A DNA stretch of 64,000 nt, taken from the NCBI GenBank assembly GCA_032622095.1, contig CP136063.1, positions 10,023,814 through 10,087,813 of the forward strand, written 5' to 3'. The position numbers and the translations under genes were made by a program. Below are positions 61-62,700 of this stretch, piece by piece. This DNA is from Siphonodentalium dalli (taxonomy: Eukaryota > Mollusca > Scaphopoda > Gadilida > Siphonodentaliidae). A model generated the notes under the pieces. It made no database searches. It had not been told where the DNA came from and saw only the letters and a list, made by a program, of their open reading frames with translations. How positions within the stretch are numbered: the stretch's first letter is position 1; each line of letters begins with the position of its first letter.

Positions 61-639
61 TATTGCATACAATAAGTGTCGCATATCAATCAACCAATCA
101 ATAGTTTATTCTCAAAAAACCAATAATGGTATTCAGAGATTACAATAATTGGACAGCTGGAGAACCCAGCATGTCCGACGTATAGATGCACAAGTACTCC
201 ATTCCCGTTTAAGATTGAAATGCAGTAGTTTGAACTTTGGCCAATTGAGTACAGGTAATCACATTAAAACGTCCTCTCTCTGTCATTGTGGCAAATAGAA
301 AAAGCTTATTATTACTTTTTGGAATACAGTGGTTTTTATGTACAGCAACTCAGTCAGTGCGAAAATATTAAAATAGTTGACGGGGTTCAGACATTTATCT
401 CGAAAACAAAGCGATTTCCATAATTCTGTCATTTGTTAAAACTTCGTGAAAAGCATTGAAACCCTGCAATCTCATGGCGACGGGCGTATCAATGACGAAA
501 ACAACATTATCTGTGTAGCATTGCGTCCAATCAGCTCCAGCGAAACTATGTGTATATCATTGTATCCAATCAGTTCCAACTGGATTACATCCTAATTTTC
601 CCCAAACAATCTCCCTCCCAGATAAATTGTTTACCTCCG

Positions 640-3240: not shown

Positions 3241-3304
3241 GTTTAGAACAAATACTTCAGTTGCTCAAAGTCGATATGTGTTAACATAAAATTACATGTC
3301 ATAA

Positions 3305-4040
3305 ATAAAATATTGTGTTGTTGTTGTTGTAACTGGGGGTTTAATTGGAAACCTGAGGTCATCTAAAACCAGGCTCGCTGTGTCTACGGGTCAGGTTATC
3401 ATCACACGAATAATGATTAGATGCTCATTAGAATAATTTAGGAAGGTCTGTCTTGTTATCATAAATATGTAGTTTTTCTACCAAATCGCGTCCGGGGGAG
3501 CGGTACCTAATTCCAATATCTTGAAAACCGTTGAAAATTTCTGTCAAATTCTTTCTACTTGTGATGTCCAGATAACTACTGAGCCATATGAATTATATAG
3601 TTGGTCACGTATTGTTTATAACAAAGGTTTTAGTACTTAACATCGATGTTAATGCATGCAAAATTAACTGTTATCAATAAAATAATTGTTGTTGTTGTAA
3701 CTGGGGGTCTGAAAGCCTGAACACATCTGTAATCGATTAAACGGCATCTCTGGACAACACTTTCATTACAAGATTTATACTGGGTCCCATTCAGATCAAT
3801 TCAAAAATGTTTGTAATGTCATTATGTAATGTAATGTATTTTTTCGACCAAAAACGTGTTTGGGGGAGGGGTAGCTAAAATCCAATATCTTGCAAACCGT
3901 TCAAAATTTTTGTTAACTTCTTTCTTCATATGCTTGACAGATAACTACTACACCATATGGACTAAACATTTCAATATTATTGCAATATCCGTTTGAATGA
4001 TAATGTTCGAAAAATATAATATTTTTGAAAAAGAGCGATT
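3305..4040 (+). repeat. Tandem duplication, ~363-bp unit, two copies
   Basis: The GTTGTTGTTGTAACTGGGGG module at about 3,318 recurs at about 3,681. A second landmark, a 'CCAATATCTTG.AAACCGTT' stretch followed by 'CAGATAACTACT', occurs near 3,510 and again near 3,875. The offset is 362-364 bp at both landmarks, so this is one duplicated unit. No open frame is shared. Confidence 0.75.
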
Positions 4041-4547
4041 TTTCAACAAAAAATAAATGTTTCGGCTCCAAATGGCACGAAAATCAAAATTAACCAACAC
4101 TTCTTGCATATCAGGTACATATATGGTATGCTGTAGTCATTTTAACGCCTACAATGTGGTCCAATAACTTAGGACATAGCCGCAGGGCTCACTTGACCAA
4201 AATCGTTAATTTCTGGGAAAAGTCACTGGTGGGTATCGTTCATCGTCGATTTAGGAATAGCCACCACCAATTCCGTTATTTTTCACTATCATTTTCGTCT
4301 ACAGTATATATTTCTCCTTCAAAAAAAGTTGGTTTTAACTTGTTCTACCGTGGGTAGGGGTACCCGACCACTTTTGGCGTTTGGCCGCTGTACTAGGTGG
4401 TTATTGTTATGTTAACGGAATTCTGAGTTGGTCATTCCAAAACCAATATATTTTTATATTCTATAATTACATTGATGGGTATAATATATATGATCTTGAG
4501 CGCGTTACCATTCCTGACATTGGTTTTCTTGTAATATGGTTATCCAG
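4041..4547. other. Intron or intergenic DNA upstream of the chitin-binding exon
   Basis: No coding signal is seen. The stretch is AT-rich and ends in the splice acceptor TATCCAG (AG at 4,546-4,547). An earlier exon of the chitin-binding gene must lie outside the recognisable sequence or upstream of the window. Confidence 0.4.
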
Positions 4548-4754
4548 ATATTCAGCGCAAATTTGTAGATTGTATCACCGATTGTACTGGCGTTGCTGAC
4601 GGACACTACCAGGACTGCTCTACATGTGAGAAATTCGTCCAGTGTAGTCATGGTTACACGCACAGCATGTGGTGTGCCTTGGGTTTGGAAGGTCATCCTC
4701 TACATTGGGACGATACACTTAAGGCGTGCGACCATTCGTCCACAACATGTCCAT
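4548..4754 (+). CDS. Chitin-binding peritrophin-A (CBM14) domain exon
   Basis: An internal exon encodes a cysteine-rich chitin-binding domain. The readable protein runs from VDCITDCTG through ADGHYQDCSTCEKFVQCS, MWCALGLEGHPLHWDD and ends KACDHSSTTCP. This matches the CBM14 pattern: about six cysteines, an aromatic-rich core and a final CDHP/S-like motif before C. Proteins of this family bind chitin outside the cell, in peritrophic membrane, shell matrix or mucus. The acceptor is TATCCAG at 4,541-4,547 and the donor GTGAGT at 4,755. The exon is 207 bp, a multiple of three with phase 1 at both ends, as expected for a shuffled domain exon. A paralogous, damaged exon follows at 6,567. No signal peptide or other exon is visible, so full gene structure is unknown. 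Confidence 0.8.
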
Positions 4755-4916
4755 GTGAGTTACATAACTGCCGACGATTCCAGTGATATTTTGTATTTTT
4801 ATGGCAAACTTACACTTATACTTATATTCAACAACTACTTACTCATGTACATGTGCATGTACTCAAAATTTCAAAAGTAACCCTTTCGATAACACGCGCA
4901 CTGCATGAAAACTGGA

Positions 4917-5262
4917 ATTTATTCATTGCATAAATTCCGGATAAATGTGCATAAATCTGGATAAATCAGAAATTTATTCACTGAATAAATGTGCATAAAT
5001 CCGGAAATGTATGCACATTTATTCACAATTTATTCATGAATAAAGGCCGACATTTATACACAATTTATTCACTGAATAAACCCACGTTTATTCAACATAA
5101 TAAACTCGGCATTTATTCGTACGTTTATGAACATTTATTATCGACCTGTTTATGCATAAATGCAAATTTATTCACTGAATAAAGCTGCATAAATATACAT
5201 ATAGCTACATTTATTCTGGTTATAAACTCCAGTTTATGCACATTTATACCCCGTATAAATTA
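4917..5262. repeat. Cluster of short palindromic words (TTTATTCA / TGAATAAA)
   Basis: About 350 bp in the intron after the chitin-binding exon are built almost entirely from TTTATTC, GAATAAA, TGCATAAA and TTTATGCA words. The 17-bp word TTTATTCACTGAATAAA occurs exactly at 4,973, 5,064 and 5,167, and half-words alternate in both orientations between them. Every word is self-complementary or has its complement nearby, so many alternative small hairpins are possible. Spacing is irregular, so this is not a simple tandem repeat. Confidence 0.75.
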
Positions 5263-6179
5263 TTTGGATTTGAACATATATATCCATATATATTTGTGAA
5301 ATCTACTTTATGGTGACATTTGGCTTGTAACCAGCATATGATGCGACACGGATGTGTATATCTAACTATACATATACACATGTGTCGCCCGGATTCTGGT
5401 ATCTCCATGTGCATGTAGTAATTTGCCAACAAAATGCTGCCATATTGTTGGTTATACCAGTCACAAATATAATATGAACTACTTCGACATGGCACTTGCC
5501 GTCATCAATTTTCGTAGTTTCTGCCATAAAGAATAAACATTAAATAATTAAATGATCGCATGGGAAATAAGTATAAACGATAACATATTAAAACTAAAAT
5601 AAGAATTGTAATGTACGGCATTTTTTATTTGTGGAATCACTCTCACAAAACCACATTTTCACGAGATAGAATAACCTTATTCCGACGTCTCTGTATAATC
5701 AAATATTAATTTTGACATGTGTCGATCACGCTGCGAATTGAAAGGGAATTTAAAAATGAAATGATGTGGCGATCATGTTCTAACCCAAGCAAATATATCA
5801 CTACCAATACCCCTCCACACCCACCCACACACGAACACCCCATCCTACCACATTGGTCCCTACTGTGTGCATGGCTACATTACAGTCCACAGCGTTAATC
5901 GACCATTGCAAATATGCCTTCTAGTTTAGACAGAAAATGCGAAACCAGAAAACAAACGTATTTGTATATAAACTCGCCTTATAATTAAGAGTACCCACCT
6001 AATTCACGCACGTCTTCGCAGCAGTTGTGTTGGCAGACAAAGAAATCGGTGTCGGCAGTTAGCTTCTGTTATACGATATGTCTCACATATCCACATGTTA
6101 GTAATTAAATTATGGGCCAAGACTTAAAACCGCTGTTGGTTACAGTAATGAGCGAAAATAATGCGACATTTGTGCGAGA
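5263..6179. other. Non-coding stretch, probable intron
   Basis: No gene, splice-consistent exon or repeat family is recognised. A short CA/CCA-rich patch lies near 5,810-5,850. It lies between two exons of the same domain family and is probably intronic. Confidence 0.4.
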
Positions 6180-6310
6180 TTTAAAAATATAAATGCGAGA
6201 TTTATATTTTTGTATAAAGACGAATTTAATATGCATAAATGCATGCATAAATTTAGGGTCCTAAATTTATGCGACATTTATATTTTATAAATCTCGCTTT
6301 TCATGCAGTG
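6180..6310. repeat. Second palindromic-word cluster (ATTTATGC / GCATAAAT)
   Basis: The stretch alternates AAATGCGAGATTTA, TGCATAAATGCATGCATAAA and TTTAGGGTCCTAAATTTATG, followed by TTTATAAATCTCGC. The first and last parts (GCGAGATTTA and TAAATCTCGC) are inverted copies, so the whole can fold into a stem of about 120 bp with an AT-rich middle. It lies in the same intron as the larger cluster at 4.9-5.3 kb. Confidence 0.6.
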
Positions 6311-6566
6311 GCGGCCTTTGCTTACGTTCCTAATTTCTAAATTTGTAAAACCCAACTATGTACCACGTCCCTGTATTTTACTGAAACTACCGGTATGGGA
6401 CAATCATGATACTTTAAAGTTTTAACTTCATACGTATAATTATTCCCTATATGATGGTGTGTGATTCCACAATACTGGTACGCATACGCTTGTATTATTG
6501 TATACTTATGTTTTCTAAATTTCAAAACACCAAGCATACTTCTGTTGTGCTCCTTTTTTCACTTAG

Positions 6567-6779
6567 CTTACAACTAAAATGTCCAAGTGGCGCTTCGGAA
6601 TGTGTATCTAGATGTTATACACATTTGTACATGTTACCCCTGTAATCTGCAGTGTCCCAACCCCAGGATCCCTATATGTTTACAACACATGTGGTGTGCC
6701 TGGGGTTTGGAAGGGCATCCTCTGTATGAAGGCGAAACGCTAAATACGTGCGACCATCCGTCCATGTGTCCATGTTCAT
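6567..6779 (+). pseudogene. Damaged second chitin-binding (CBM14-like) exon
   Basis: The C-terminal half is clearly homologous to the 4,548-4,754 exon: HMWCAWGLEGHPLYEG, LNTCDHPSMCPC. The donor GTAAGT at 6,780 is in the same phase 1, and with the acceptor TTCACTTAG (6,558-6,566) the exon is 213 bp, again a symmetric phase 1-1 exon. In that frame there is a TAA at 6,575-6,577 near the start, and the N-terminal half no longer aligns (CTCYPCNLQC in place of CSTCEKFVQC). It is therefore a decayed tandem duplicate, or an exon using another acceptor inside. A MITE begins about 30 bp into the following intron. Confidence 0.6.
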
Positions 6780-6805
6780 GTAAGTTAATAATAGAGTTGT
6801 TTGGA

Positions 6806-7090
6806 TGGAAGGTGGATTATCTCTTTGTAAACATGTATTATATAGTTACTGGATATACAATATTTTAAATGAATCGAAGATTCCTGTCCGGAGATACACA
6901 CATGTATTATATAGTTACTGGAGGACTCCTGTCCGGAGATACACACATGTATGTGTAATGCTACCGTCACTATCATATTATGGATAATGATTACAAAATT
7001 ACACAATAAAATTGTCGTCTCTGTTAACAGCAACAAATATTGTTAGCTAAACAACCACACATTTTTGGGCCAGAAAATATTTGAAATAAA
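6806..7090 (+). mobile_element. MITE-like repeat, family M, copy 1
   Basis: It opens with GGTGGATTATCTCTTTGTAA, then TATTATATAGTTACTGG and CCTGTCCGGA. The same opening occurs at 12,400 and, on the other strand, at 63,590. In this copy the part TATTATATAGTTACTGG through CCTGTCCGGAGATACACACA is duplicated in tandem. An inner module ending in GAAATAAAAT is present inverted relative to the 12.4-kb copy. No open frame is present. Confidence 0.65.
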
Positions 7091-7114
7091 ATCAACATTA
7101 ATCGATAGATAGAG

Positions 7115-7432
7115 GATCTCAAATGAGTTAGTATTTTATATCGAATTTATCAACCGAGTTCACTAAATTCGATTGGAGCCGAGGTTTACCGAGGCTCAAA
7201 TAGAATTTAGTGGACGAGGTTGATAAATTAGTTATAAAATAGAAACCTTTTATCACATGATCTTATGATAGCTAAAATTTTATCGAAAAGAACAGTTATT
7301 AACTGCAGTCAGCAAACTTTGTCCCAATGAGCAGAGTCACGTCATTGCACGCGACGATATTACACGTGTATGATGCGCTCGAGTATTACATAGGAACATA
7401 GTGCTAATCATGTGATAAAAACATTTTCGAAC
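7115..7432 (+). mobile_element. Foldback element with GAG-mismatch hairpin, copy A
   Basis: The first half (7,131-7,252) is a hairpin. The left arm has AATTTATCAACCGAGTTCAC and the right arm GTGGACGAGGTTGATAAATT; the inner parts are GAGCCGAGG and CCGAGGCTC. At both places the top strand carries CGAG in each arm, so this triplet cannot pair. The second half is bounded by TTTTATCACATGAT (7,248) and ATCATGTGATAAAA, a terminal inverted repeat. A copy about 90% alike lies at 53,215-53,560. No transposase frame is present. Confidence 0.7.
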
Positions 7433-8485
7433 ATAAGTCTTCGATTCATATGTAGTATATTATGCCCCGGTAACATTTTAGCACACATTTACAAAGCTAT
7501 AATCCAACTTTAACTCGTTCTTCATTGTGGGCTCGTGTATTTCTTCATGTTATTTATTTTCTTGTATCTTATTAGTTTTTAATAGACATCTGAATTGCAA
7601 GGGCAAATCACTTTCCCAAAAATCACTATTTATAATATGATAGTGTCTATAGCATTATATATACATGTGCGCTAAATGTTGGCGTTTTATTTACAGAACA
7701 ATAGGTGTGACAGAAGGCTATGGTTCACAGACAAGAGACACTTATATAAATAAAAACGATAATCCAGATATGACTCATTTACTGTCATGACAGATACGAG
7801 ACAACATGGGACCGCTGACTTAAATACGTGCAACGGCAAACGTGGCACATACCGCATTTTTTGGCTTTGCACTAAGTCCAGTGCTGACCAACGACATCAC
7901 TGACAAAGACTAGAATATAATTGCGATAGATTATAATAGAATTGCAATAAAATTGCACAAACGCCACGGAAGGTAACAGTGATGACCCCGCTATTTGGTG
8001 CGTCAGCTGTGATGTCGACGCGTCCATATGTCCGTTGGACTCAAATGATTGGTAATCAATTCATTCTTGACGCTACAGTCAGAAATATGTCAGACTAAGA
8101 TAAACGGCGAGTCAAATACGACACCAAAGAAGTGATTAATTTATTATCCCAACATCAGGGGTATCAATTTCACACCACATATGTCGCATTTATCGTCACG
8201 TGACCCAACCAACTTATGTCAGCTGTATAAGACTGGGCACTAAAGCCATTGGACACGCCTTAAAGCGTGAGTGACGGCTGAACTGCCACGTGCTGGCTAT
8301 ATACTATCACAACTCAAAATATCAGAACTTTTATCTTATAGTGACCAGGCACTCTTCAGAGCGGCGGAGATTAACCAGTTTAAACTGGTTAGAATATAGG
8401 TCCATCTTAAAGAAGACCCGACATGCAGTCTTCACATCGCCAATGAACGCGGAGTGGTTGAAACTACAAACTACAAACCATCCAA
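7433..8485. other. Non-coding stretch without recognised features
   Basis: No gene or repeat shared with other parts of the window is seen. The open frames are short and have no recognisable similarity. Confidence 0.4.
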
Positions 8486-10678: not shown

Positions 10679-12399
10679 TTATGAGTGTGCACTATTGTTC
10701 TTGATGGCTTTCATTAGATCCTCCCACTCGAGTTGGAAATGGTTTAGATTGTCGGAATTCAGTGCAATATATCGATACGATTTGTATCGTAATTCAAATT
10801 CTCGAATGAGTAAGTTCAGAGAGAGATCGTCTGGGCTAAATTTTGTTTTATACAGATAATATTTCAAAATTGATAGTATAAGAAAGTTTAATTTGTTGTT
10901 TTTATTGTAAGCACCAATCCCAAAAAGAATATTTTTCCGAGAAAGCGAGATGCCCAGATGATAGCGATCTCGCCAGGCCTGAATGGTATTTACAAACGTT
11001 CTTACGAGTGGACAGTCAAAGAAAATATGTGAAATTGATTCATTTGCGACGTTACATCTGAGACATAGACCATCTGACCGAATTCGCATTATGTTCAAAA
11101 GCCTGTTTGTGCCTAAAATTCTGGTCAGTATTCGGTATTGAAACCAGCGTAGTTTCGTGTCGACTAATAGTTTGAAGGGTGATGAAAATATGTTTCCAGT
11201 GAAGGGAACACCTTAATTCGTTTTCCCATTTTATTTGTGACGATGATTGTCCTATTTTAGTCGATTTTATGAATTCATCGTAAAAAGTTCTGCAACTTTG
11301 CTCATTTTGAAGTAGTGATACAATATTTTCAGGAATGATTGGATTTTGAACACTGGCGATCGCTTTATCGATCCGTTTTAATAACCTATTAATTTGTCTG
11401 TTTAGGCCGTGTGCAGTGATAAAGTTTGTGGTGATGTTGTTCTTAGTTCTAAGAGTTTCGATGGAATGTGGCTTATTGTCTTCGGTGAAGATATCATTTA
11501 TGAATATTATGCCTTTGTCCTTCCACTCAGCGACGTCTATCATTGAGTCGTCGATCAACAGTTAATCATTTTTCCAGATTGTTTGCGTCATGTCGTATCG
11601 AGGCTCTTTTATGTCCAAGAAATTACGCCAGGCTACAAAGACGTCACGACAGAAAGGATTCCCAATAGTTGACTCGCATCTTTTTATATATTTTGAACCA
11701 TATGTCGCAAATAGAGGGTCATTTATTATTTGTTTTGGTGCCAAATCTGTCCATTGAGTTGTTTTCGTTATGCACCTTCGAATCCATGTTATTTTTAATG
11801 AGTCGATGAAATATTTTAGGTGCACCATTCTTAAACCACCGTTTTCATATTCTGCACACAGTTGCATTCTTTTTATTCTATCACGTTTTCCATTCCAAAT
11901 AAATCTGAACAAAATGGTATTCATTTCGTCTATGAATTTTTTATCTGGATTTGGCAAAGCCATAAATAAGTGAACAGATTTTGGTATTAGAATAGATTTT
12001 ATCAAAGTAATTTTACCAAGGGGTGGTAAGCGTCTATATTTCCATTTATTTATCGATTTCTTTAATTCGTCAATCTTCCCCATGTAGTTGAGTTGCAGGG
12101 TCTCTGTCGGATTAGTACAAAATTTTATACCTAACAACGTGAAAGACTTTGATACCTTAATGTGACAATTTGGGATTGGTGCCAATCCACGGTTCTTTTT
12201 TGTTCCCAACCAAACAATTTCACATTTACCAACATTAACTTTCAAACCAGACATTCTGGCAAACAAGTCCAATACATTAAGAACTTCACGGAAGCTAGTA
12301 TCGCTCCCATCAAGAATTAGTGTGGTGTCGTCAGCATACTGGTTAATCTTGTACTCTGTCCTACCGAGAGTTACACCATCTATTCGGATACTCTTAAAG
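10679..12399 (-). pseudogene. 3' part of an L1/Tx1-like LINE ORF2
   Basis: Reading from 12,399 leftwards, the frame gives the reverse transcriptase catalytic motif QYADDTTL (12,327-12,338 for YADD), then LFARMSGLKVNVGKCE and LGIKF, and the thumb-like region FRFIWNGKRDRIKR...GGLRMVH typical of L1/Tx1-type ORF2. The C-terminus holds a zinc-knuckle of the form CLRC...HIFFDC. The copy is inactive: an in-frame TAA at 11,562-11,564 and a frameshift near 11,060-11,100 break it, and the 5' side (endonuclease and first RT motifs) is gone exactly where MITE family M starts at 12,400. Confidence 0.85.
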
Positions 12400-12765
12400 G
12401 TGGATTATCTCTTTGTAAACATGTATTATGTAGTTACCGGGGTATACAATACTATATTTGAATCGAAGACTCCTGTCCGGAAATGCTTCTATCGACTAAT
12501 ATTAATTTTATTTCGAATATTTTCTGGTCTAAAAAGGTGTGTTTGTTTAGCTAACGAACAATAGTGGTTACTGTTAACAGAGACCAGAAATTATATTGTG
12601 CAATTTTGTCACAAATAAACTTTAATTATACAAATTATCGCTTGTATCTGTGGAACAAAACAATACAAACAACCAATATGTGACATTTGACATTCGTTGC
12701 GTAGCCGTAGGAACAGCCCAGTGCTCTATATCGCAATAGTGACCAATATACAATTTTATTAAAAT
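12400..12765 (+). mobile_element. MITE-like repeat, family M, copy 2
   Basis: It starts GGTGGATTATCTCTTTGTAA, continues with CCTGTCCGGAAATGCTTCTA, and then a small hairpin bounded by TCTGGTCT and AGACCAGA. Further on, CAAATTATCGCTTGTAT.TG and GACATTTGACATTCG match the interior of the 63.2-kb copy read on the other strand. It abuts the truncated LINE with no gap. Confidence 0.65.
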
Positions 12766-41202: not shown

Positions 41203-41233
41203 ATTAAGATTGTATGCGTGTTAATCAAATGAA

Positions 41234-42418
41234 ATGGCTCAGGCACCAGAGATACCTAGTTTAGATTTTGGAAGTGAGTCAGAGATAAGAATGATGGAAT
41301 ATGAGAATTTAATACGACAGCGTAGAGAAGAGGAGATGAATAGAAATAGGGATTTAAACCCAAATGACCGACCACCTGCATATGAACAAATTTCCCAGGG
41401 AAACGATCAGAATATGCAGAGTGTGTTGGGACAATTGACTGAACAATTGCATTTATTTAAAACTGCAGTGGTTCAACAGTCTGAGGCCTCAAAGCAGTCA
41501 ACAGCTGTTCAGGCAGCATTGGGCGCGGCTACGATAATAGGGAAATATTCAGGTGACCCCAAAGGGTTCAAAGACTGGATTTTACAAATAGAAAGGTATT
41601 CGCTGGCGATGGATGCAGCCGACGAAGATAACATTAAATTAGCTAATCAAACGGCACGGGGACCCATAGCAGAATTTGTACAAAGATTTATGAAACAAAA
41701 TACGAGGCATGGGTTCCTAAGAATTACCTGGGCTGAGTTCAAAAGGGAATTGCGGACCCGTTATGGAGATACAGCAGACAATCAACATGCTCTCTCCATT
41801 TTACGCAACATTAGGCAAATGAAAGAGGAAAGGATTCAGGTATATTCCGAACGATTACGGGAGATAACTACAGATGCATTTGAGGATCATATCCAAGATG
41901 CTGCCATTGAAATGCAATTGGTGGGATATCTTGTAGATGGATTATACAATGATTTATTGAGGTTTAAATTAACGAGGGAAAATCATCCACAGTTAGATAG
42001 GGCAGTAGAGTATGCAATGAGGGAAGCCAATTTACATAAACGGTATAAACTAAGGTATGGTGAGGGTACATATGATAGGTCTCAAAGAAATGCTGCTGAT
42101 AATGAAACACCCATAGCAATGGAAACCCAACCAGATAGGTATCAGGGACCACGCCCAGTGCAAGCTCAAAATAGGTACCAGGGGCCACGCGTTATTTCGG
42201 GGCCAAATAGAGGGGCGCCACTACAACATAATGTGAGGGCATTACAAATGAGAAATGAGACAGTAAGGCCAGTCAATCCTTCAAATTCACAGGGTTTTGT
42301 AAGGAATCAACGCCCCGGGACGCCATTTCGGTGTGAATATTGTCAAAAAGGGGGACATTCTATAGACAGGTGTTGGCTGTGTCAGGCAGATGAAAGACGA
42401 AAGAAAAATTTAAATTAA
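41234..42418 (+). CDS. gag: Ty3-like Gag polyprotein
   Basis: This is an intact frame of 394 codons, opening MAQAPEIPSLDFG. It has a Gln/Glu-rich N-terminus, a retrotransposon-gag capsid core from about residue 95 to 260 (KYSGDPKGFKDWILQIE, WAEFKRELRTRYGD, LRNIRQMKEERIQVYSERLR), a basic Arg/Gln linker, and one zinc knuckle CEYCQKGGHSIDRC (CX2CX4HX4C) near residue 370. Gag packages the element RNA in cytoplasmic particles. The frame is intact although pol is badly broken, so it may be a recent casualty or may have been kept. The pol frame follows in another phase. Confidence 0.9.
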   Translation: MAQAPEIPSLDFGSESEIRMMEYENLIRQRREEEMNRNRDLNPNDRPPAYEQISQGNDQNMQSVLGQLTEQLHLFKTAVVQQSEASKQSTAVQAALGAATIIGKYSGDPKGFKDWILQIERYSLAMDAADEDNIKLANQTARGPIAEFVQRFMKQNTRHGFLRITWAEFKRELRTRYGDTADNQHALSILRNIRQMKEERIQVYSERLREITTDAFEDHIQDAAIEMQLVGYLVDGLYNDLLRFKLTRENHPQLDRAVEYAMREANLHKRYKLRYGEGTYDRSQRNAADNETPIAMETQPDRYQGPRPVQAQNRYQGPRVISGPNRGAPLQHNVRALQMRNETVRPVNPSNSQGFVRNQRPGTPFRCEYCQKGGHSIDRCWLCQADERRKKNLN

Positions 42419-42967
42419 AGGGTTCCATTTTTGAGGTGGCCGAAAAATGGAACGAAACAAATCAAAAGAAAATAATAGAAAATTTTCAAGCTAGAATAAT
42501 TGAGCAAATTAAATGTTTTGAGTCAGGTAAACGTCGAATGAATAACCCAAATAGTTTACAAGATGATAAGACATCTCGTATACGAAACAGAAAAAACAAG
42601 AAATGAAATTAAAGGTAATCAAATAAAAAGGAAAACTGAGCCACCAGTGAAAAATTTAATAAAATTTGATAAAAATGAGTTAAAGAGAGGCAATGTTAAT
42701 CATAAGTTGACTAGTGGAAAAAAATAAATCTAAACTAGATCAGAGAACTCCAAAAACAATAATTGAACAAAAGAAACAAACTATCACTCATAAACAAGAA
42801 GTGAACACTAAAAGTAGGGATTTTATGAAGCACAAAAACATTGATATGAATTGTGTAACAAAGACACCTGAATTTAAAATTAGTAGCACAAATTACAATT
42901 ATCCCGGAGACACTGCAAAACTATTAGAGGAACATGTAGCATGTTCCATTGTAATAATGATTAGAAA
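42419..42967 (+). pseudogene. pol: Start of Ty3-like pol, degenerate linker before protease
   Basis: This Lys/Asn-rich stretch connects gag to protease. An open frame 42,714-42,977 carries the likely pol line up to the GAAA at 42,964-42,967, where foreign DNA begins. Several frameshifts lie before 42,714. The codon phase of GAAA here is the same as at 48,537-48,540, where the protease starts. Confidence 0.6.
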
Positions 42968-44719
42968 TATTCTTTAAGTCGTTTGACCGGAGGGAATTAG
43001 AGTTAAAGTACTTTCCCGTAGCGGTGACATACGAATCGCCGAATGCGGCGCTTCTCGTTGGCGAGAGGTATATTGTCATCTGCGTTGATTCCGTCTTAGG
43101 GTGTGGACCGCCTAAATTTTGTTGAGCAGCCATATTGAATGTGCACCTTTGCCGGAGTTACAATATATTGAAGCCAACAAGACATTATCGCTTTACAGAT
43201 TCATGCATTAACTCAATAACAAAATCGAACGGACAATGGCTGTTACGCTGGTGATATGACACGGACGTTGGTCACTGTGAGATAAGCTGATTAGTGTGAC
43301 GACTGCGTGATCGTTGTTACCGGCTTCATTGAGTGAGACATTAGCAGTTCGCCTTGCGCTCTTGTGCATCAAATTCGGAAGTTATACAGCACATCAAGAT
43401 AGCGGCAAACGTTGGTGTCTTCTAAGGGAATCGTCCGGTTGAGAAATTATGGTGGCGAATCGGCGATGAGTTATAAGATTGAAGATAAGTATAATTCTTC
43501 TTTGTTAAGTGACAATGTGCCCAAGGGTTTCGGAACTGATGTATATATATTAGAATACATAAACACATAGGCCCATGGCTCGGTCAATGACACAAATGTA
43601 TATAAATTCCGAAATTGGGAGCTAAATTGTGGTTTTATACTTACTATATATGTGTAACAGCACGCAGTTATATTATTGTAAGCTGCTGCGTCGAAGGTGG
43701 TAAGATCGTTTTGTTCACGAAATAATTCGAATTCTTAGTATGGTTCCGAATGTGTGAAATTGTGTAAATCGCGAGAAAATTGTGATTCAATGTTGTATCC
43801 GGGTTAGACATGACGTCTGATTGGGCCGCATAACGATATTGCAGTTGGTTTGCTCTGCATTCTCACTGATGCATACAATATTGGTTGTATTGTGAACGTT
43901 AAAATATACATACCATATATTATATATAGAGTTGTCAACTTTTCAAAATTGCGGATTCACAAAAAAAAAAAATTAATTGGAGAATGGTTATTCCAAATTA
44001 CACAAATTGTTTTGAAAATTTGGTTGAAATATCAATGGGTGACTGTGAGTACTGGTTTTGTCGATGTTCCATTCCAGGCGTATGGCAAAAAGCTTGGTTT
44101 TACCGGAGGTTTAGACATCACAGATTGGCTGTCATCAATCGGTGAGGATTCGTCTTCGAACAAGTGTTCATTTGGAAACGCATGGCGCTGAATTCATATG
44201 TTTACATGTAACAGACTTATGGGACTATGAAATCAGTCTATATATCAACGGAACTCGTGTGTTCTGTATATCTTCGAACTGAACTCCAGATGGTTCTTGT
44301 TAAAACTGGAATTAGCATCTAAGCTAGTAATCATATAGTTTTGCGGAAATATGTTATCATTATGTGGGCTAATTGTTTGCGATTCACTGCAATGGTATAG
44401 CATTATAAATTTATGTCATGCATAATTATGACCAAAGATATATTTATTATATGTAAATAATCGACTGAACAGTATATTTGAAACAGATGTGTGAATCTTG
44501 AAATTTTGAATAACATATTCAATGGCACAATTGTCGAAGATCAGAATGTGATAAGGTACTCAGTGTGCCGCTCTAGTTTTATTAGAAATTGAGCATATCT
44601 AATTATTCATCATTCTTTCTTTGTCAGTCTGTGGTCTGCGTGACGATGCAGCGCGCTATCCTATATGGGTGTTGTTGTTCTTGGGTATATTCGGGATGAA
44701 GGATGGAACTCGTTTAGGG
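42968..44719 (+). mobile_element. Inserted block 1 in pol (1,752 bp), GAAA-bounded
   Basis: It is preceded and followed by GAAA (42,964 and 44,720). Its first 153 bp (start TATTCTTTAAGTCG) match the start of block 2 with two differences, and its last 82 bp (GCGTGACGATGCAG to GTTTAGGG) match the end of block 2 exactly. The middle is not alike between blocks. Start and end are not inverted copies, so this is not a TIR element. No protein is recognised. Confidence 0.75.
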
Positions 44720-45289
44720 GAAATATTCTTTAAGTCGTTGGACCGGAGGGAATTAGAGTTAAAGTACTTTCCCCTAGCGGTGACATACGAATCGCCGAAT
44801 GCGGCGCTTCTCGTTGGCGAGAGGTATATTGTCATCTGCGTTGATTCCGTCTTAGGGTGTGGACCGCCTAAATTTTTACGGTCTACGAGGCGTTAATACG
44901 TATATATATACGTGTATATATCCGCATTGCAATGAATCTGATAGCTCTTTCATGAATTAAATCGATACATGTCTTTGTATGGAACATGTTGAAATACATG
45001 TCATATGTATTAGCTCAATTGTTGACACCGATTTAAAGAGAATGTATAGGGAGTGGTATGTGTGCATGAAATAATGTTGCCAGTGATAAGCCGACACTGA
45101 GGTACGGTACCGATCGACAGATCTGGTAGAGATCGGACGGTATAAGTTGTTACTTGGCATTGGTTTGGTGTCACAGGTTTCCATAGGTGTTTTATCCTAC
45201 GGGTTTTTATCTATGGTTTTTCCTGGCCGGCCACATACCGTAGTAACATTATGGTTCATGTTGTTTTTTATTGTGAAATCCATGATGAT

Positions 45290-46015
45290 TGTATAATATG
45301 ATTGTATATATATATATATTGGAAATATTATGTTTCATAACTCAGTATTACATGTAGAGTAATATATTGTAGTGTGTTAAGACTCGAATAGTCTTTCTAA
45401 AGTATATCCGACTGGCCGTATGCAACATATATTTTCATATAACATCAGTTGTATGTTGAAGTGCAGAGTATCCACTGCATCTACAGTGTATCTTGTTATC
45501 TGCATGGTGTGTAATTGGAATACGAATTACCATTGGAATTACTTGTGCATATATGGAAATTTGAGATTCGTAAATTTTTCCAGATGAAACCGAGTAACCG
45601 TGGTTATTCACAATGGTGTAAACGGGTATATATTATGCTCACTGTCAGTACAGTATGATTGTATAATATGATTGTATCTATTTATTGGATATATTATGTT
45701 TCATAAATCAGTATTACATGTAGAGTAATTTATTGTAGTGTGTTAAGACTCGAATAGTCTTTATAAAGTAGATCCTGTATGCAACATATATTATCATAAT
45801 AGCATCAGTTGTATGTTGAAGTGCAGAGTATCCACTGCATCTACGGTGTATCTTGTTATCTGCATGGTGTGTAATTGGTATACGAATTACCATTGGATTT
45901 ACTTGTGGATATATGGATATTTGAGATTCGTAACCGTGGTTATTCACAATGGTGTAAACGGGTCTATATTATGCCCACTGTCAGTACAGTGTCGTGTTCG
46001 AACAAATCAAGTTGG
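45290..46015 (+). repeat. ~365-bp tandem duplication inside block 2
   Basis: CAGTATTACATGTAGAGTAA, ATCAGTTGTATGTTGAAGTG, CAGAGTATCCACTGCATCTA and GTGGTTATTCACAATGGTGT occur in order near 45,345-45,620 and 45,710-45,960. Each unit ends in CACTGTCAGTACAGT, a palindromic word that also follows the next duplication. Confidence 0.8.
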
Positions 46016-46189
46016 GTTTTTTGATCGTATGCGCAGAGGCAGATGGGATATCAGTGTATTCTAGGATTGTATGGATACTTATTGATACATATCGGCGATA
46101 TATATATGTATTGGCTGTATATTATATTTGTTTCAATTAATGGAGAATTTATATGCATATTACCGGTAATTCAAATATAATTATAAGTA

Positions 46190-47035
46190 ATGCAGACTGA
46201 CATTATACTGCCCATGCAGTGTTCGCTTGTCCGAACGTTTAGTGATGTTCTGGAGTTTGCGCCGATGCAAACGGATGCTTGGCTCCATAATTAGATGCAG
46301 TCATCTCTCAATGCATATTATATGGCTATTTATGCTATTGTATGCATTTCCAGTGGACTGAAATATGTAATATTTGGGATATTTGAGCATTGAGAATTGT
46401 GAATAATTAAAAGTTCGAACCGATGCAATGCGATTTTTTGGTGGACTATTTTGTAGAATACTACAGTAAACGTTGTTTTGGGTCCATAAACAAAATCGTG
46501 TAAACTGGACAAAACTATATTCTCACTGTCAGTACAGTGTCGTGTTGGAACCAGTGATGTTTGGTTTTCTGACCGTGTGCTCGGTGGCCGACGGGCGATT
46601 GTTGTATTATAAACAAAGCGATGCTTATCGATATATATGTGTGTATATGTGTATATATATATGTATGTATACGTATATATGTGTATATATATGCTGTGTG
46701 TTGTATTGTTTCCAATTTTGGCGAATTATATGCATATTAATTCAATTAGAATTATAGGTAATGCAGACCGACGCTATATACTGTGCATGCAGAGTACGGT
46801 TTCCGAACGTTCAGTGATGTTCTGGAGTTTGCGCAGACGCAAACGGATATTTTGGTTCCATGCATAATTCGATGCAGTCATCTCTCAATGGTTAATAGAT
46901 GGCTATTTGTTCCATTTTATGTATTTCTAGTGGACTGACATGTGGGATATTTGGATACTTGAGCATTGAGATTTGTGAATGATTAAATGTTCGAACCGAT
47001 GAAAAGCGGTTTTTGTTGGACTGTTTTGTGAAATA
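46190..47035 (+). repeat. ~568-bp tandem duplication inside block 2
   Basis: AATGCAGAC.GAC, CCGAACGTT.AGTGATGTTC, TGCAGTCATCTCTCAATG and TTCGAACCGATG.AA occur near 46,190-46,430 and 46,757-47,010. Between them lies a TATG/TATA microsatellite (46,630-46,695). Both copies contain the double-hairpin motif. Confidence 0.75.
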
Positions 47036-47180
47036 CTACAGTAAAAGTGGACTCGGTGCCATAAATATCCGTACATATTTCCGATGGAATAGGAAAATTG
47101 CGTATATATTGGAGACTAATTACACACTGTCATTATAGTGACGCGTTGTAACTGCATTGCGAATGCGATGCGATTTCATG

Positions 47181-48146
47181 TCAGTTCGCGGTGTAGTCCA
47201 AGTCTTCTTGTACTAAAACCAGCTAAGATATTGGGATGGCGATGCTGGCGTTTAGTCCAAGCCCGCTTGCATACCAATCCTACCACACGACTTACGCCCA
47301 CGATCTGTGGCGGGAATCTGTGGTGTATTTTACTCGATTTACCTAGCAAATCAATACATGATGCTATATACATCGGAAAGGCTTACATCTTATGGTCACA
47401 ATGGTGTATAATAATCTAACTTTAATGTTAAATTACACATAGAATATTCCGGTTGATTGCCACAAACATCGTTGTTTTTTCTGTTTGTTTACTTAACTGA
47501 AAGCCGAACTCAGGTTCCGAAGAACTTCGGCATTGTCCGGTGTTTGTTTTGGCCGAGACGAATTTCGATACAAACAAAATGGCGGCCCCCATGATATTCT
47601 AATGCTCATTGTGTTTACACTGTTTTAAACTGTGAGATGGTTATAATTCCCGTAATTTATTTAATGTATTACATTTATATCTTCAATATGTTTTTAATCT
47701 ATGTATTTATTTATTTATTTATTGTCACGTATAATTACGATTACAATGGATAATTCATCGTGCGTGGTTGATTGAAAATCTACGGAATATTTTCACCGGA
47801 AAATGCCGAACGCAGTTCGCAAGGTCAACTGAGTTCGCATACTTAAAAAAATATGTAAACACTGCGGCAAATGTTTCTTTTCACATTACATTACCGCTTT
47901 CAATTCACAACCGATGTGGGTTTCAGATCAAATAGCATGTCTTCTGCGGAAAATATCCGTTTATTGTCGCAATTGTGATATTTTATTTCATATAATTGTG
48001 GTTTTATTTGAGCGGGTCACTAACGCTTAAGCCGTGTCATAAGCGAGCATATAGGGCGGTCTTGGACTAAACGCCAGCATCGCCATCCCAATATCTTAGC
48101 TGGTTTTAGTACAAGAAGACTTGGACTATTCGCGGTGGGGCACTGC
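47181..48146. mobile_element. ~970-bp inverted-repeat element inside block 2
   Basis: An ~85-bp inverted repeat bounds it. The left copy holds TAGTCCAAGTCTTCTTGTAC, TAAAACCAGCTAAGATATTG and GGATGGCGATGCTGGCG; the inverse is at 48,058-48,140, nearly identical. Inside, GCCGAACTCAG and TTCGGCATT.TCCGGTG also recur inverted near 47,502-47,540 and 47,788-47,830. No open frame of note. Confidence 0.75.
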
Positions 48147-48540
48147 GACGTGATGCACGGCCCGGGTAGTGCGCGTGATAGATTATCAGGCCGCACTATC
48201 ATTCAAAGTGCGAGGTTTATATAGAACATTCAGTGATGTTCCTCCATCTGCGCAGATGCAGGTGAGCGTGTACACAATAATATCATTTTCTATCTCGGGT
48301 GTGATTTAGAACATTCAGTGATGTTGGGCCATCTGCGCAGATGCAAATGGCTGATGTAATTGTGATGGATGTCCTTGTTTATATGGTTGTGATGGAATGT
48401 TTTTGTGCATGTATATTGGAATGATTGTGTAATTGGTGAGAATAAATATGGTCCGCGTGACGATGCAGCGCGCTATCCTATATGGGTGTTGTTGTTCTTG
48501 GGTATATTCGGGATGAAGGATGGAACTCGTTTAGGGGAAA

Positions 48541-48748: not shown

Positions 48749-50605
48749 GAAATTAAACAGGTAACTTATACTTGGACGAGATTTTTTAAGAGACAATGGA
48801 GTAAGAATGTATTTTTTCATATGGGAGCCATGAAAATTAAAAATCAGTTAGTGGGTCTCGTACCAGATATCCAAATTGCATCTTTAATACGCCTGAAGGC
48901 TAATTGTAAATTAAAGCCTAGGACAGGTGCCATTTGTTCTGCTAAAATTATTGGAGGAGCAAAAATGTTTGAATCTTCCTTCATAATGGCGACTTGTACA
49001 GAACAGGGATTTCTCAGTGAACATCCCGGACTCACGTTGGAAGAGTCAATAACGACAACTGAAAGTGATTATATTCCTGTTAAAATAATTAATCAAACTG
49101 ACAGGCATTATAATTTAAAACATGGCTATGTTGTGGGGAAAATATGTCCTATGCAAGAAGCAGAAATAAATCAAATTTCTAATTCTTTTGAAATGGAGGA
49201 GGCGCATGTCGATGAGAAAGAAATTTAAATGTGGTCACTGAATTGGTATTGAAAAATCAGGATATTTTTGCTGCAAACAATAGACAATTGGGGGAAACAC
49301 CAACATATAAAATGGAAATCAGGAACTGGTGTCACAAAAACCTTATAGAGTACCTTTGCACCGAAGACAGCTATATAGAGATGTTATTGATTCAATGGAA
49401 AACGCAGGAATAATAACCAAATCTAAGAGTCCGTGGTCAAATGCCTGTTTTATGATTCCTAAAAGTGATGGTACATGGAGATTTGTTTGTGATTTTCGAT
49501 CGCTAAAAAAGATAACAAAGAAAATTTGTTATCCTTTGGCTATAATTGATGATATAATTTCGGAGATAAAGGGATCCAAAGTGTTCAGTCTATTGGACGC
49601 AAGACAAGGCTATTTTGCCATGCCTATCAATGAAAAAGACAGAGAAAAGACTACATTTATTTGTTTCTATGGTAACTGTTTTTTTAATCGCACTGCATAT
49701 GGGTTGAAGAACGCTCCGAGCGCATACAGTGATTGATGGCGATTGTTTTAAAAGGGCTAACTAACGTTATCAACTATATTGATGATATATTGATTTTCAG
49801 TGATTGTATGTCTAATCACGTGACTCATGTAAAGCAGGTATTTCAAAGGCTAAGGGAACATAGTATCAAACTGAAATTAAAGAAGTGTTCATTTTTCAAA
49901 TCAGAGACAAAATATTTGGGTTTTATAGTAAATGAATCAGGTATAGCACCAGATCCTAACAAGATTAAAGCATTGAAAAACATGATAGCGCCTACTACGA
50001 TCAGGGGCGTAAGAGGTTTTATTGGCGCGATGTCGTACTATCGACGTTTTCTCCCTAATTTTAGTAAAATATCTATCCCTTTGATTAATTTAACTAAGAA
50101 ATATGCCAAGTTTAAATGGGATAAACAGTGCCAAGAGGCTTTTGAATATTTAAAAGAAAGTCTAGTTGTCATACCTCAACTTGCAAATCCAGATTTGAAT
50201 AAACCATATACATTGTATACAGATAGTAGTCAAAATGCGATTGGGGCGGTGTTAGTTCAAAATTGTGATCAAAATGAGGGAATAAATATACCACAATGTA
50301 GGAATGAAAAGCCAATCTATTTCCTGTCAGCAAAATTGAGTCCTACACTGTGCAAAATGTCAGTGATAGAAAAAGAATCCTATGCAATATGTTATGCTCT
50401 TAAAAAGCTTGATCATTATTTAAATAAAGCCACCTTTACTATTAAAATGGATCATCAACCTTTAAAATATTTATTAACCACTCAATATAATAATCAGAAA
50501 ATTCAGAGGTGGATGTTGTGTTTATCAGCCTATAATTGCACTATAGAATATCTGCCAGAAGTGAGAATAGTGTAGCAGATTTGTTGAGTAGAATTCCATA
50601 CTCAA
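48749..50605 (+). pseudogene. pol: Ty3-like pol: reverse transcriptase and RNase H, broken
   Basis: Motifs in order: a linker (ESSFIMATCTEQG), the RT entry SPWSNACFMIPKSDGTW, VCDFRSLKKIT, FSLLDARQGYFAMPI, YGLKNAPSAY, the catalytic NYIDDILIFSD (about 49,764-49,800), then YYRRFLPNFSKIS. RNase H has LYTDSSQNAIGAVL, EKESYAICYALKK and MDHQPLKYLL, so its acidic residues remain. Breaks: a stop at 48,748, frameshifts near 49,230, 49,330 and 49,735, and another near 50,560, after which the end of the region (NSVADLLSRIP) is in another frame. Confidence 0.88.
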
Positions 50606-50911
50606 TATAAACTGAGGCACATTTGTCTGACATCGAGATAAATTATAATAATTTACAAATAAATGTGATTCACTCAAATCAAATTTCTCGAAAGTTGCAG
50701 AATGTAAAGTGGAACCCAATGATCCATTACCCCAAGGCGATTTATCAAATGAAGAAGTCGCTCAATTTAATATGAAAACTGAACAAGGAAAAGACTCAGC
50801 AATTCAAGAGGTCATTGCATCATATAAAATAATCCTCCCCCATCAATTACTAATAAACATTTACGTATAGAAGATGTCTTATATTACATATCAAATGCAG
50901 ACGATGACCCC

Positions 50912-51601
50912 ATGTTGACATTATATATACCGGGTCATTTACAAGAAAATGTACTAACTCAATATCATGATAAACTGGGACATTTTGGATTTGAGCACAC
51001 ATTTCAAATAATTCGTCGTAAATATTACTGGCAAAATATGTACAAGTGTATATATGCACATTGTGAGAAGTGTGTAATTTGTAAATCACGGAATCTGGTT
51101 AAACTGAGACCTCCATTACAAGACACTGACATGCCAGCTTTTACAGGCGCAAAATGGAGTATAGATATATCAGGGCCATTTCCGCGGACATTAGCAAATA
51201 ATAAATATTTGTTAACTTGGTTTTGTTTGTATAGTGGTTGGATAGAGTCATTTCCAATAACTAGTAAAAGCACGGATTTGATTATTCATTGTCTTTTGGA
51301 AGATATTATACCAAGATTTGGCGTTCCAATACAGATTTTGAGGAATAATGCGAAGGAGTTCACTTCAAATAATTTTAAAGAAGTATGTAAAAATCTAGGA
51401 ATAAAATTGGTTTTAACAAATTATTATTCACCTCAGTCTAATAGTCGAAATGAAAGAAGCCATAACTGTTTGAATGATATACTTTCCAAAATTATGGAAG
51501 GAAATCAGCGAACATGTGATCTTGTTTTGGAACAAGCATTATTAGCACATAGATGCATGATTTCAGTAACGAAAAGACACGAAGACTCCTGTATGATGTG
51601 A
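50912..51601 (+). pseudogene. pol: Ty3-like pol: integrase fragment, 3'-truncated
   Basis: The HHCC zinc domain (HDKLGHFGFEH... HCEKCVICK) and the catalytic core (WSIDISGPFP; FGVPIQILRNNAKEF; SPQSNSRNERSH) are readable. The second catalytic aspartate is replaced: the usual DxGxEF-like position reads NNAKEF. The core is followed by a few residues and a TGA at 51,599; the C-terminal domain, the 3' end and a 3' LTR are absent. The integrase would be inactive. Confidence 0.85.
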
Positions 51602-59744: not shown

Positions 59745-62700
59745 GCAATTGCAGGACAATATAGATATCTCAAAATCTGATTTGTTCAATTCTTGGTCTA
59801 AATTGCCGAAGCCAGAACGCTAACTGGGATCCACTTACAAATCTCCTATCAGATATAACTAACTCTGAACATCCTATCGATATACTTGCTCTGACGGAAA
59901 TATTCAAGATACGAGAAGAATATTCTCTTCCTGGGTATCATCAATTCCAATTCAAATCACGACCAGATGACGATGATGGACGTGGTGGTGTAGCATTTTT
60001 GTAAATGAAAAACTTTCTTATAAAATCCGTGATGACCTGACGATATTTATCCCACATGTTATTGAAACTATATTCATAGATATTGACTCGGCTCACTCAT
60101 CGTGTGTTGTGGCATCTATCTACAGACCAAATACGGCACCTCATGCAGATATCGACATATTTATAGATAAAATTACAAGTGTGGTCGAACATTTAAATGA
60201 TTCTGGAACAAAGGCATATATCATAGAAGACTTCAATATCGACTTGCTTAACTTTCAGTCACATCCGAAAACTAACAACTTCATTGAAACTATGTTTGAA
60301 AATGGATTCTTACCTGTAATTACAAAACCTACACGAATAACCGACCACTCGGCAACACTGATCATATTTATACTAATAACAATGTTTCCCGTGCCGATAC
60401 TGGGATTATCCTCTCCGTTGTGTCAGACCATTTTGCTACATTTTATTCCGAATATCACGATATCATAAGTATATAAAAGCGAGCAGCTCTACCGATAAAC
60501 GTATAATTAGTAATGAGAACACAGACAAATTTAAATCAATACTTCGACAACAAGATTTTCGATGTGTCTTCAATAGTACATCACCAAACCAAGCTTATGA
60601 CAATTATTTTTCAATATATCTATGGGCGTTTAATGAATCATTTCCATTGGTCAGATCTAAACCACCAACTAAATATATATAAAAAAAACAACCTTGGATG
60701 ACAAAAGGTCTCATTAACTCCTCTTTAGTCAAGAACAAACTTTAAATAACAAAATTAAAAGCTCCTAGTGATAACAACGCTGAGAAATATAAAATATATT
60801 GTCGAATATACAAATCCTTAATTAGGAAAAGCAAAAAACTATACTACAACAATATTCTCCACGAAAATAGATTTGACATGCGACATACATGGGTCATCCT
60901 GAAAAACGCTCTTAAAGTAACAAATAACACTCCAAAAATACCAACAAATATATCAAATGGAAACACTATAATTTCGCAACCAGAGAAAATAGCTCAATAA
61001 TTTAACGATTATTTTGCGAAAATAGGTAAAAACAAAAAACTAGTGACGAGGTGCCCTGTAACATCGGAATGACATTTTCTGACTATCTAACTGATCCCAA
61101 TGCAAAAAACTTGTTCATATTCCCAACAGATACAAATGAAGTTTTGAAACTCTCGAATGACATCACTGGAAAAGGAACCACAGATATCGATAACCTGTCA
61201 TATAACCTGTCGTCAAATGTAATGAAACAGACCATACCCGAAACGTCGCCAGCGCTAACGTATATATTCATTCTATCATTTAAACAAGGTATTTTCCCCG
61301 ATAGGATGAAAATATCAAAGTAATTCCACATTATAAAAGTGAATCTCCCGATAAAATAACGAATTATAGGCCGATAAGCATTCTGCCCGTTTTCTCGAAG
61401 TTGTTAGAGAAACTCATGCATAAAAGGCTTTTTTCATTTCTCGAAATACATGAAATTTTACATAAAAATCAATATGGCTTCCATAAGAATCACTCTACCA
61501 TGCATCCTTTGATGCACCTTCTATATCATGTAGCAACAAATAACGACAAACCAACTAAGGATTCTATATTAGCGATTTTCATAGACTTATCAAAAGCATT
61601 CGATACAATTAACCATGATATTTTATTGAAAATATTTGAGCATTATGGATTTCGGGGGTTTTCCAATGAATGGTTCAAGAGTTATTTGAAGGGAAGAAAA
61701 CAATACGTCGATTGTCTTGGTCAAACGTCTGACTTTGCGAAGATAACGTGTGGTGTGCCCCAAGGGTCCGTTCTTGGCCCGATAATTTTTTTTCTGTATG
61801 TTAACGATATGCCCAAATTTACCTCGATGAACTTGCTATCATTTGCCGATGATACCACGCTTTACTTTTCTGGTCATGATAGGAAACAGTTGAAAAAATC
61901 ATCAACAGCAGAACTAAAAACATTTTTGAATGGTGTTGTTGCAATAAACTATCTATCAACGCAACTAAAAGTAAATTCATATTGATCCACCCCAAAGGCA
62001 ACGAGGACAAGTGGAGAAATTTTACAATATAATTGAATAATATGGAAGTAATAAGAGTTGGGAATCAAATGCGAGAAAAATCAATAACATTTTTAGGCAT
62101 TTTGATCGATGAATACTTGACTTTTAAAAACCATATATCAATGATACAACGTAAACAGTACCACACTCTCTACTTATTGAACAAAGTTAAAAACTTTCTA
62201 CCAAAAATATCTCGAAAAACTCTATATCAGTCGTTAATCCATAGTTATCGTATTTATGGTCTCCCGATATGTGGACACTCAATTCACGCATGCGTACTAT
62301 CTACCTTACAAAAAATGGCAATTCGTATTGTATGCAACACAAAATATAGGAGTCACACAGAACCTCTCTTCAAACAAGAAAATATCCTAATGTTCAAAGA
62401 TATATATATAGTGAATGCATCTGATTTTATGTACAACTGGTCTAGAAATACTCTCCCCAAATCGTTTAAGAATATGTTCACATATTCCCTCGGTGTTAAC
62501 ACTAGACAGGCAAATTAAGAAGCAATAAGGCAAGAACATGTTTTTCAGAAGTCCTACCAAAGCATTCATTTCCTAAAGTGTGGAACTCGATAAATTCCAA
62601 AATAAAAAAAGTTAATTTATTTACACATTCAAAAATAGGTATATATTCTCAAATGGTTATCTGTGAAAACAAATTATGCTTCATTTGCAGTCGGCAAAAT

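Follow-up and report, generated by a model that had tools for sequence, protein, structure and literature searches.

Several groups of mobile elements resemble, in one feature or another, the element described here. Split direct repeats have been defined as a class of termini, and DIRS elements are described as inserting without target duplication (PMC8969392). In the nematode form of PAT, internal repeats are found between the domains of the element, the B1A2 unit lying inside it (PMC4157794). Ngaro elements follow the order A1-[open reading frames]-B1A2B2 and are accompanied by solo AB repeats in the genome (PMC8547959). SIRE is the non-autonomous part of VIPER that extends from A2 to B2, and VIPER/TATE elements also lack a target duplication (PMC6681497, PMC12278014). 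Animal Cryptons are described as lacking terminal repeats (PMC3212892), and Helentrons and the derived HINEs carry subterminal inverted repeats of 12-15 bp, located 2-4 nt from the 5' end and 38-60 nt from the 3' end (PMC4067079, PMC5148889). Here we analyse a two-block, apparently non-coding element in a 64,000-nucleotide stretch of the genome of the scaphopod mollusc Siphonodentalium dalli (contig CP136063.1, positions 10,023,814 to 10,087,813 of the forward strand), called the window below, and compare it with these systems.

The element occupies positions 42967-48539 of the window (plus strand, 5573 bp), its boundaries being backed by the in-phase reading frame of its host. From left to right it is composed of A1, the left terminal copy of repeat A, which starts with ATATTC (42967-43120, 154 bp); interior 1 or int1 (43121-44637, about 1.5 kb); B1, the internal copy of repeat B, which ends with GGGGAA (44638-44722); A2, the internal copy of repeat A (44723-44876), which abuts B1 directly (GGGGAA/ATATTC); interior 2 or int2 (44877-48454), which contains tandem repeats and a TA-rich microsatellite and measures about 2.6 kb without the nested insertion that it carries in the window; and B2, the right terminal copy of repeat B, also ending with GGGGAA (48455-48539, 85 bp). 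B2 contains TGGGTGTTGTTGTTCTTGGG, which is GU-rich as RNA. Compared as blocks, the start repeat covers 157 bp (42964-43120 and 44720-44876, two differences) and the end repeat 92 bp (44632-44723 and 48449-48540, one difference), both in direct orientation, and int1 and int2 have nothing in common past chance matches of up to 17 bp. The original prediction, made from the window alone, of two head-to-tail blocks with shared direct ends, unlike interiors and no terminal inverted repeats is therefore borne out. One open frame of at least 100 codons is present in int1 and two in int2; a Pfam scan gave no match for any of the three, so that neither gag, reverse transcriptase/RNase H nor tyrosine recombinase was recognised in them. 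Having no recognisable genes in its open frames, the element would be non-autonomous at most.

The insertion itself is clean. The host is a Ty3-type retrotransposon with domain matches to gag (41225-42418) and to reverse transcriptase, RNase H and integrase (49311-51601). When the ends are set at 42967 and 48539, the 85-codon left frame continues in phase into the 68-codon right frame, a continuity that would be lost with one or two additional bases. For the single-block copy C9:33866533-33868222 (copies are given as contig and position), a paralogous empty site lies within an insertion on C5 and matches both flanks, with 83% identity on the left, 72% on the right, and a 2-bp gap plus a mismatch beside the edge. 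This empty site and the in-phase host frame together argue for clean insertion, as had been claimed for the disrupted pol gene.

The family was searched for in the 2.23-Gb genome (nine contigs); at most 40 candidates of each DNA search were scored, and all family counts are lower bounds. The start and end parts both recur, as expected under the original prediction, with at least 40 matches each (40 of 162 and 40 of 104 candidates scored, respectively). There are at least 46 matches to int1 (40 of 87 scored) and at least 72 to the first 1.2 kb of int2 (40 of 128 scored), many of the latter being its internal repeats. The end/start junction was found in at least 25 places (40 of 232 scored), whose different flanks rule out chance or a single local duplication, even if two near-identical junctions on C6 (229.84 and 230.40 Mb) may be one duplicated locus. 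Directly before the junction stands int1 in 21 of the 25 cases and 750 bp upstream in one more; three are unsettled, two with only the last 10 bases similar and one cut. After the junction stands int2 in 23 cases, one of them following a 7.2-kb insertion, and the remaining two resemble an int2 start only in the 12 bases that come next. The reversed order was not seen at any of the 25 junctions found.

Both outer flanks could be read in 24 copies, namely 12 two-block composites, 4 int1-only copies, 5 int2-only copies and 3 miniatures. All 12 composites consist of exactly two blocks, int1 then int2, with the direct repeats in the A1-B1A2-B2 arrangement, and no A follows the int2-side B in any of the 20 such B copies read. 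Without its nested insertion and one copy of the accompanying duplication, the window element measures 4,629 bp, against about 4,595-4,685 bp in five other full composites. The two most diverged junctions also belong to composites of the same order (identity to the window 79-89% in int1, 79-89% in int2, 85-89% in A and 90-91% in B), which indicates that the layout is old. In 11 composites, not all of them complete, the int1 and int2 distances co-vary (r 0.745; 35 of 5000 by chance), and two int1-only copies lie 1.8-2.2% from their nearest relatives. Different interiors were looked for at these two junctions, where the same int1 and int2 were found, and behind the A copy C1:91845473, where 49 bp of int1 are followed by satellite-like repeats. 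A longer member encoding a recombinase had been suggested as something to look for; the two long members owe their extra length to unrelated insertions, judged by eye, and not to coding content of their own. The insertion in the C5 long member has one 202-codon frame resembling, by eye, a piece of a non-LTR (long terminal repeat) reverse transcriptase.

The paired repeats are more alike within an element than between elements. A1 and A2 differ at 2-5 positions (1-3%) in the 12 composites compared, and their within-element distances sum to 36, while random pairings give a mean of 65.9 and a minimum of 46. For B1 and B2 (13 composites) the sum is 17, against a mean of 34.1 and a minimum of 18. 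Random pairings as low as those observed were 0 of 20,000, for A and for B. The clearest private variant is a 10-bp deletion present in both B1 and B2 of C2:29366797-29371653 and in no other aligned copy. Similarly, C3:6498394 has a private CTTAGG in B1 and B2, plus one A variant, and C9:55442030 has one private base and a 2-bp insertion in both A copies. A1s cannot be told from A2s by any single site, frequencies differing by 0.29 at most, and the same is true of B1s and B2s (0.16 at most). The B copies of the window have several variants in common with the single-block copy C6:168796084, whose int2 start differs by 0.2%. The within-element likeness, the private variants and an old layout combined with low A1/A2 divergence indicate rewriting of the repeats from one template. 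On the whole, the sequence comparisons show that both blocks are transmitted as a single unit whose paired repeats, like those of LTR elements, are renewed from a common template.

This bears on how the tandem arrangement arose. The original prediction attributed it to a second integration at the same core, that is, to two independent Crypton-type circle-integrating elements with a shared attachment site that landed head to tail. Such a model would account for the single-block copies with clean ends (4 int1, 5 int2 and 3 miniatures among those read into both flanks), and candidate enzymes are encoded in the genome: in a phage-integrase family search in which 150 of 1445 candidates were scored, the candidates scored included numerous recombinase matches whose open frames exceed 500 codons. 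One copy of each of four recombinase families was opened (L126 at C8:20.66M, L127 at C3:96.21M, L128 at C6:2.60M and L129 at C2:46.81M). Their recombinase frames, of 548-659 codons, contain DUF3504 and Phage_integrase, a combination that we take to be of Crypton type, and many further matches lie in frames of similar length among the candidates scored. L126 and L127 contain no open frame of at least 150 codons besides the recombinase, L128 and L129 have others, and palindromes of more than 160 bp are present in all four regions. L129 also offers a direct tandem, two copies of 3.6-3.7 kb (284-8231) that are 93% identical, the second one with the recombinase frame. At C2:39406686-39413067, three recombinase matches are spaced 3089 bp head-to-tail, according to the match table only. 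However, the two-Crypton model is largely contradicted by the order, which is fixed in the copies read, with two blocks in 12 of 12 composites. Moreover, int1 and int2 co-vary between elements, the repeats are alike within elements, two int2-only copies differ by just 0.2% and 0.6% from composites that belong to different lineages, as derivatives should, and the ends are not the same in the one Crypton family for which they were read. We regard this model as highly doubtful. Fixed order and within-element likeness argue against passive tandem re-integration and fit split direct repeats of the PAT, Ngaro and VIPER type. A circle-forming recombinase element, the general kind first proposed, still fits the data; what is unsupported is independent tandem integration.

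Further evidence is provided by the placement of AATAAA. The sole plus-strand AATAAA of the element (48441-48446 in the window) is located just before B2, 99-100 bp from the right end, in six of six full composites, and the minus strand of the same six has 3-5 (the nested insertion of the window is left out of these counts). The motif precedes 19 of 21 int2-side B copies, the exceptions being one ATTAAA and one miniature, and 0 of the 16 int1-side B copies examined, which include a miniature; in the window it is absent from the 40 bases before B1. The argument is one of position and conservation, the copies of one family not being independent. A plus-strand RNA is likely on these grounds: with AATAAA only before B2, a transcript would pass B1A2 and end in B2, as the split-direct-repeat model needs.

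In the model for split-direct-repeat retrotransposons, the internal B1A2 serves to rebuild the ends, and the paired repeats are regenerated at each transposition. We consider it moderately probable that the present element is a non-coding member of this kind, mobilised in trans by a tyrosine recombinase, with RNA and circular intermediates. A plus-strand RNA would start in or near A1, read through B1A2 and receive its poly(A) tail in B2 by means of the single AATAAA. This RNA would be copied by a reverse transcriptase acting in trans, and the missing outer parts of A1 and B2 would be restored from the internal B1A2. A circle would then be formed, its new B/A junction being the attachment site, and a tyrosine recombinase, also supplied in trans, would insert the circle behind an AA that is only loosely required, no long target duplication being made. 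Copies with a single block and miniatures could arise either by recombination between paired repeats, in the manner of solo LTRs, or by resolution of the circle at its two B/A sites. What is observed is the recurrent two-block anatomy in one order, the ends, the clean insertion, the within-element likeness and the single-block copies; the RNA, the circle and the enzymes are inferred. A more specific proposal, that a gene-less element with two junctions borrows a Crypton-type integrase together with the copying machinery of another retroelement, and that its circle may split and insert the blocks singly, is rather improbable. If it were true, two unrelated enzyme systems would jointly maintain a 4.6-kb non-coding parasite.

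Several results weigh against a split-direct-repeat element moved in this way. Among the differences between the paired repeats of one element, 21 of the 35 in A and 4 of the 16 in B involve two alleles that both occur elsewhere, so that either the rewriting is not perfect or mutation recurs at some sites. Integration in either order would be expected of a circle whose two B/A sites are identical, and no permuted composites were seen. The scarcity of AATAAA is not significant by itself, 23% of shuffles having one or none. A coding partner with the same ends was not found among the 150 of 1445 recombinase candidates scored, and A, B and the interiors were unmatched in 20 recombinase loci and in four 9.9-kb recombinase regions; different ends are present in the one Crypton-type family in which they were read. 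No reverse transcriptase was linked to the element, reverse transcriptase families not having been searched for. In addition, left and right flanks match over 2-3 bp in 9 of 24 copies against 3.67 expected (4 of 5000 shuffles), an excess that the split-direct-repeat model does not predict and that we cannot explain. Finally, at C8:158240446-158242361 the internal junction carries a 10-bp insert, cgcacagaaa, which adjoins a shared TTTTAGG and is near-identical to the flank left of A1 (agcacagaaa). This looks like gene conversion of A2 by A1 together with its flank, and gene conversion may contribute to the likeness of the repeats.

The same insert is what would be expected if the element were a DNA-only circle of two modules whose two attachment sites are identical and which a site-specific recombinase moves, the repeats being kept alike by conversion and by B/A recombination with no RNA involved. 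The miniature C4:131763097-131763364 points in the same direction: its 264 bp consist of A, 14 bases of int2 start, 10 bases resembling the end of int1, and B, an order that would need a circular or permuted template, resting on only 10 bases. However, conversion would have to be efficient over repeats of 85-154 bp and be passed on, no permutation was seen, and the position of AATAAA would be left unexplained. An origin of this type seems to us very improbable.

The ends of the copies are well conserved, most of them having ATATTC on the left and GGGGAA on the right. Four A2 starts are exceptional in one changed base (GTATTC, ATATTG and, twice, ACATTC), three B ends deviate, one reading AGGGAA, one broken at C2:230639141 and one at C8:158240692, and the A copy C2:230636350 is without its start. 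The base following GGGGAA in other copies can be A, C, G or T, and the left flank varies as well. On the plus strand, the left flank has A at -1 in 23 of 31 copies and at -2 in 24 of 31 (p 4e-6 and 3e-7); weaker preferences at -9, -4, +7, +8 and +10 are uncorrected for the 40 positions considered. GAAA, and then GAA, were considered as a recombination core, and further flanks left just a preference for AA. Thus, the GAAA pointed out at all the junctions is present in the window but is not a rule of the family, since part of it is flanking sequence, which varies on the right and shows a preference for AA on the left. When the flanking bases of the 24 copies were listed, the ends proved recurrent and no long target duplication was found, the longest flank duplication being 3 bp. 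An LTR retrotransposon, TRIM or LARD can be rejected: the left end is A and the right end is B, and a duplication of 4-6 bp is lacking in these 24 copies. One copy, C7:26203699-26208346, lies inside an inverted repeat, 64 bp of its left flank being inverted in its right flank (98%).

Ends of this type also exclude Helitron1 (5' TC, 3' CTRR, A/T insertion site), because the element runs from ATATTC to GGGGAA and TC...CTRR is found on neither strand. The earlier rejection of Helitrons is valid to that extent; it did not cover the ends of Helitron2/Helentron, and a Helentron-type origin is the main rival of the split-direct-repeat reading, although in our judgement an unlikely one. According to this rival, the element would be a minus-strand, non-autonomous Helitron2/Helentron derivative (HINE/DINE-like), the tandem pair having been founded once and copied by rolling-circle read-through, and single blocks arising when replication does not read past the first terminator. 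In agreement with it, the 5' end of the minus strand, TTCCCCTA, is complementary to TAGGGGAA, located about 45-53 nt from the other end. The complementarity with A2 reaches 8 bp, as 40 of 3000 shuffles do, and counts against split direct repeats; the motif TTTCCCCTA is present in 49 of 55 A copies. Insertion, seen on the minus strand, takes place beside T-rich sequence without long duplication, tandem repeats and a microsatellite are present inside the element, and Helitron2 is reported to form tandem insertions and circles with joined ends (PMC4067079, PMC5148889). However, the inverted repeat is of 8 bp, and of only 5 bp with the A1 of the window itself, versus 12-15 bp in mite HINEs. Rolling-circle copying would not, by itself, be expected to produce the likeness of A1 to A2 and of B1 to B2; permutations and longer arrays would be expected, and none is present in the 12 composites read. 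The polyadenylation signal is, moreover, on the opposite strand.

Other features of the window can be described briefly. The nested insertion of int2 is an inverted-repeat element of 935 bp (47194-48128, strand not assigned) with 73-bp arms that are 99% identical, flanked by a 9-bp target duplication, TTCGCGGTG, at 47185-47193 and 48129-48137. With its duplication it covers 47185-48137 and starts with TAGTCCAAG; it is missing from the other block-2 copies that span that place. By its arms and target duplication, we take it to be Mutator-like. Broken open frames that resemble, by eye, non-LTR reverse transcriptase are present at 59977-62518 and 10679-12404. A search of Rfam at a permissive cut-off for known RNA families gave 10 matches, all under the curators' score and seven of them in the TA microsatellite, and the RNA fold at the junction is not unusual (z -1.61).

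Compared with described systems, the element is closest to split-direct-repeat retroelements. It shares with PAT-type DIRS elements, in their nematode form, the A1-B1A2-B2 arrangement with B1A2 well inside; however, no gag, reverse transcriptase, methyltransferase or recombinase gene was recognised here, and no coding partner was found among the recombinase candidates scored. Ngaro and VIPER/TATE elements have in common with it the split direct repeats, the lack of long target duplication, and solo or miniature AB derivatives comparable to the single-block and miniature copies; in those elements B1A2 is near the 3' end, beside B2, whereas here 2.6 kb of non-coding DNA separate A2 from B2. With the Helentron-derived HINE/DINE elements it shares non-coding content, a short asymmetric inverted repeat, A/T-biased insertion, internal tandem repeats and known tandem copies. 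The inverted repeat is shorter here, with 8 bp, one arm being at the 5' end and the other about 45-53 nt from the 3' end, and neither within-element repeat likeness nor a fixed two-block order is among the features described in the sections available to us. Cryptons are similar in being circle-integrating recombinase elements without terminal inverted repeats, as first proposed for this locus, and Crypton-type genes are present in the genome; however, a Crypton has a single recombinase gene and no long terminal repeats, whereas here no gene is recognised and long direct repeats are present.

Non-autonomous split-direct-repeat elements seem to be little described: SIRE is the only one named in the parts of the literature found, which is not proof that others are absent. 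The present family keeps the full A1-B1A2-B2 layout in the absence of recognisable genes, and its natural variation can therefore reveal the parts that are required and offers a direct test of whether the internal B1A2 is the template that rebuilds the ends. For their part, single-block and miniature derivatives with exact ends allow resolution to be compared with ordinary recombination. With an anatomy and an inheritance that are well supported, and a mechanism that we infer, the element is a gene-less variant that is new within a known kind of element.

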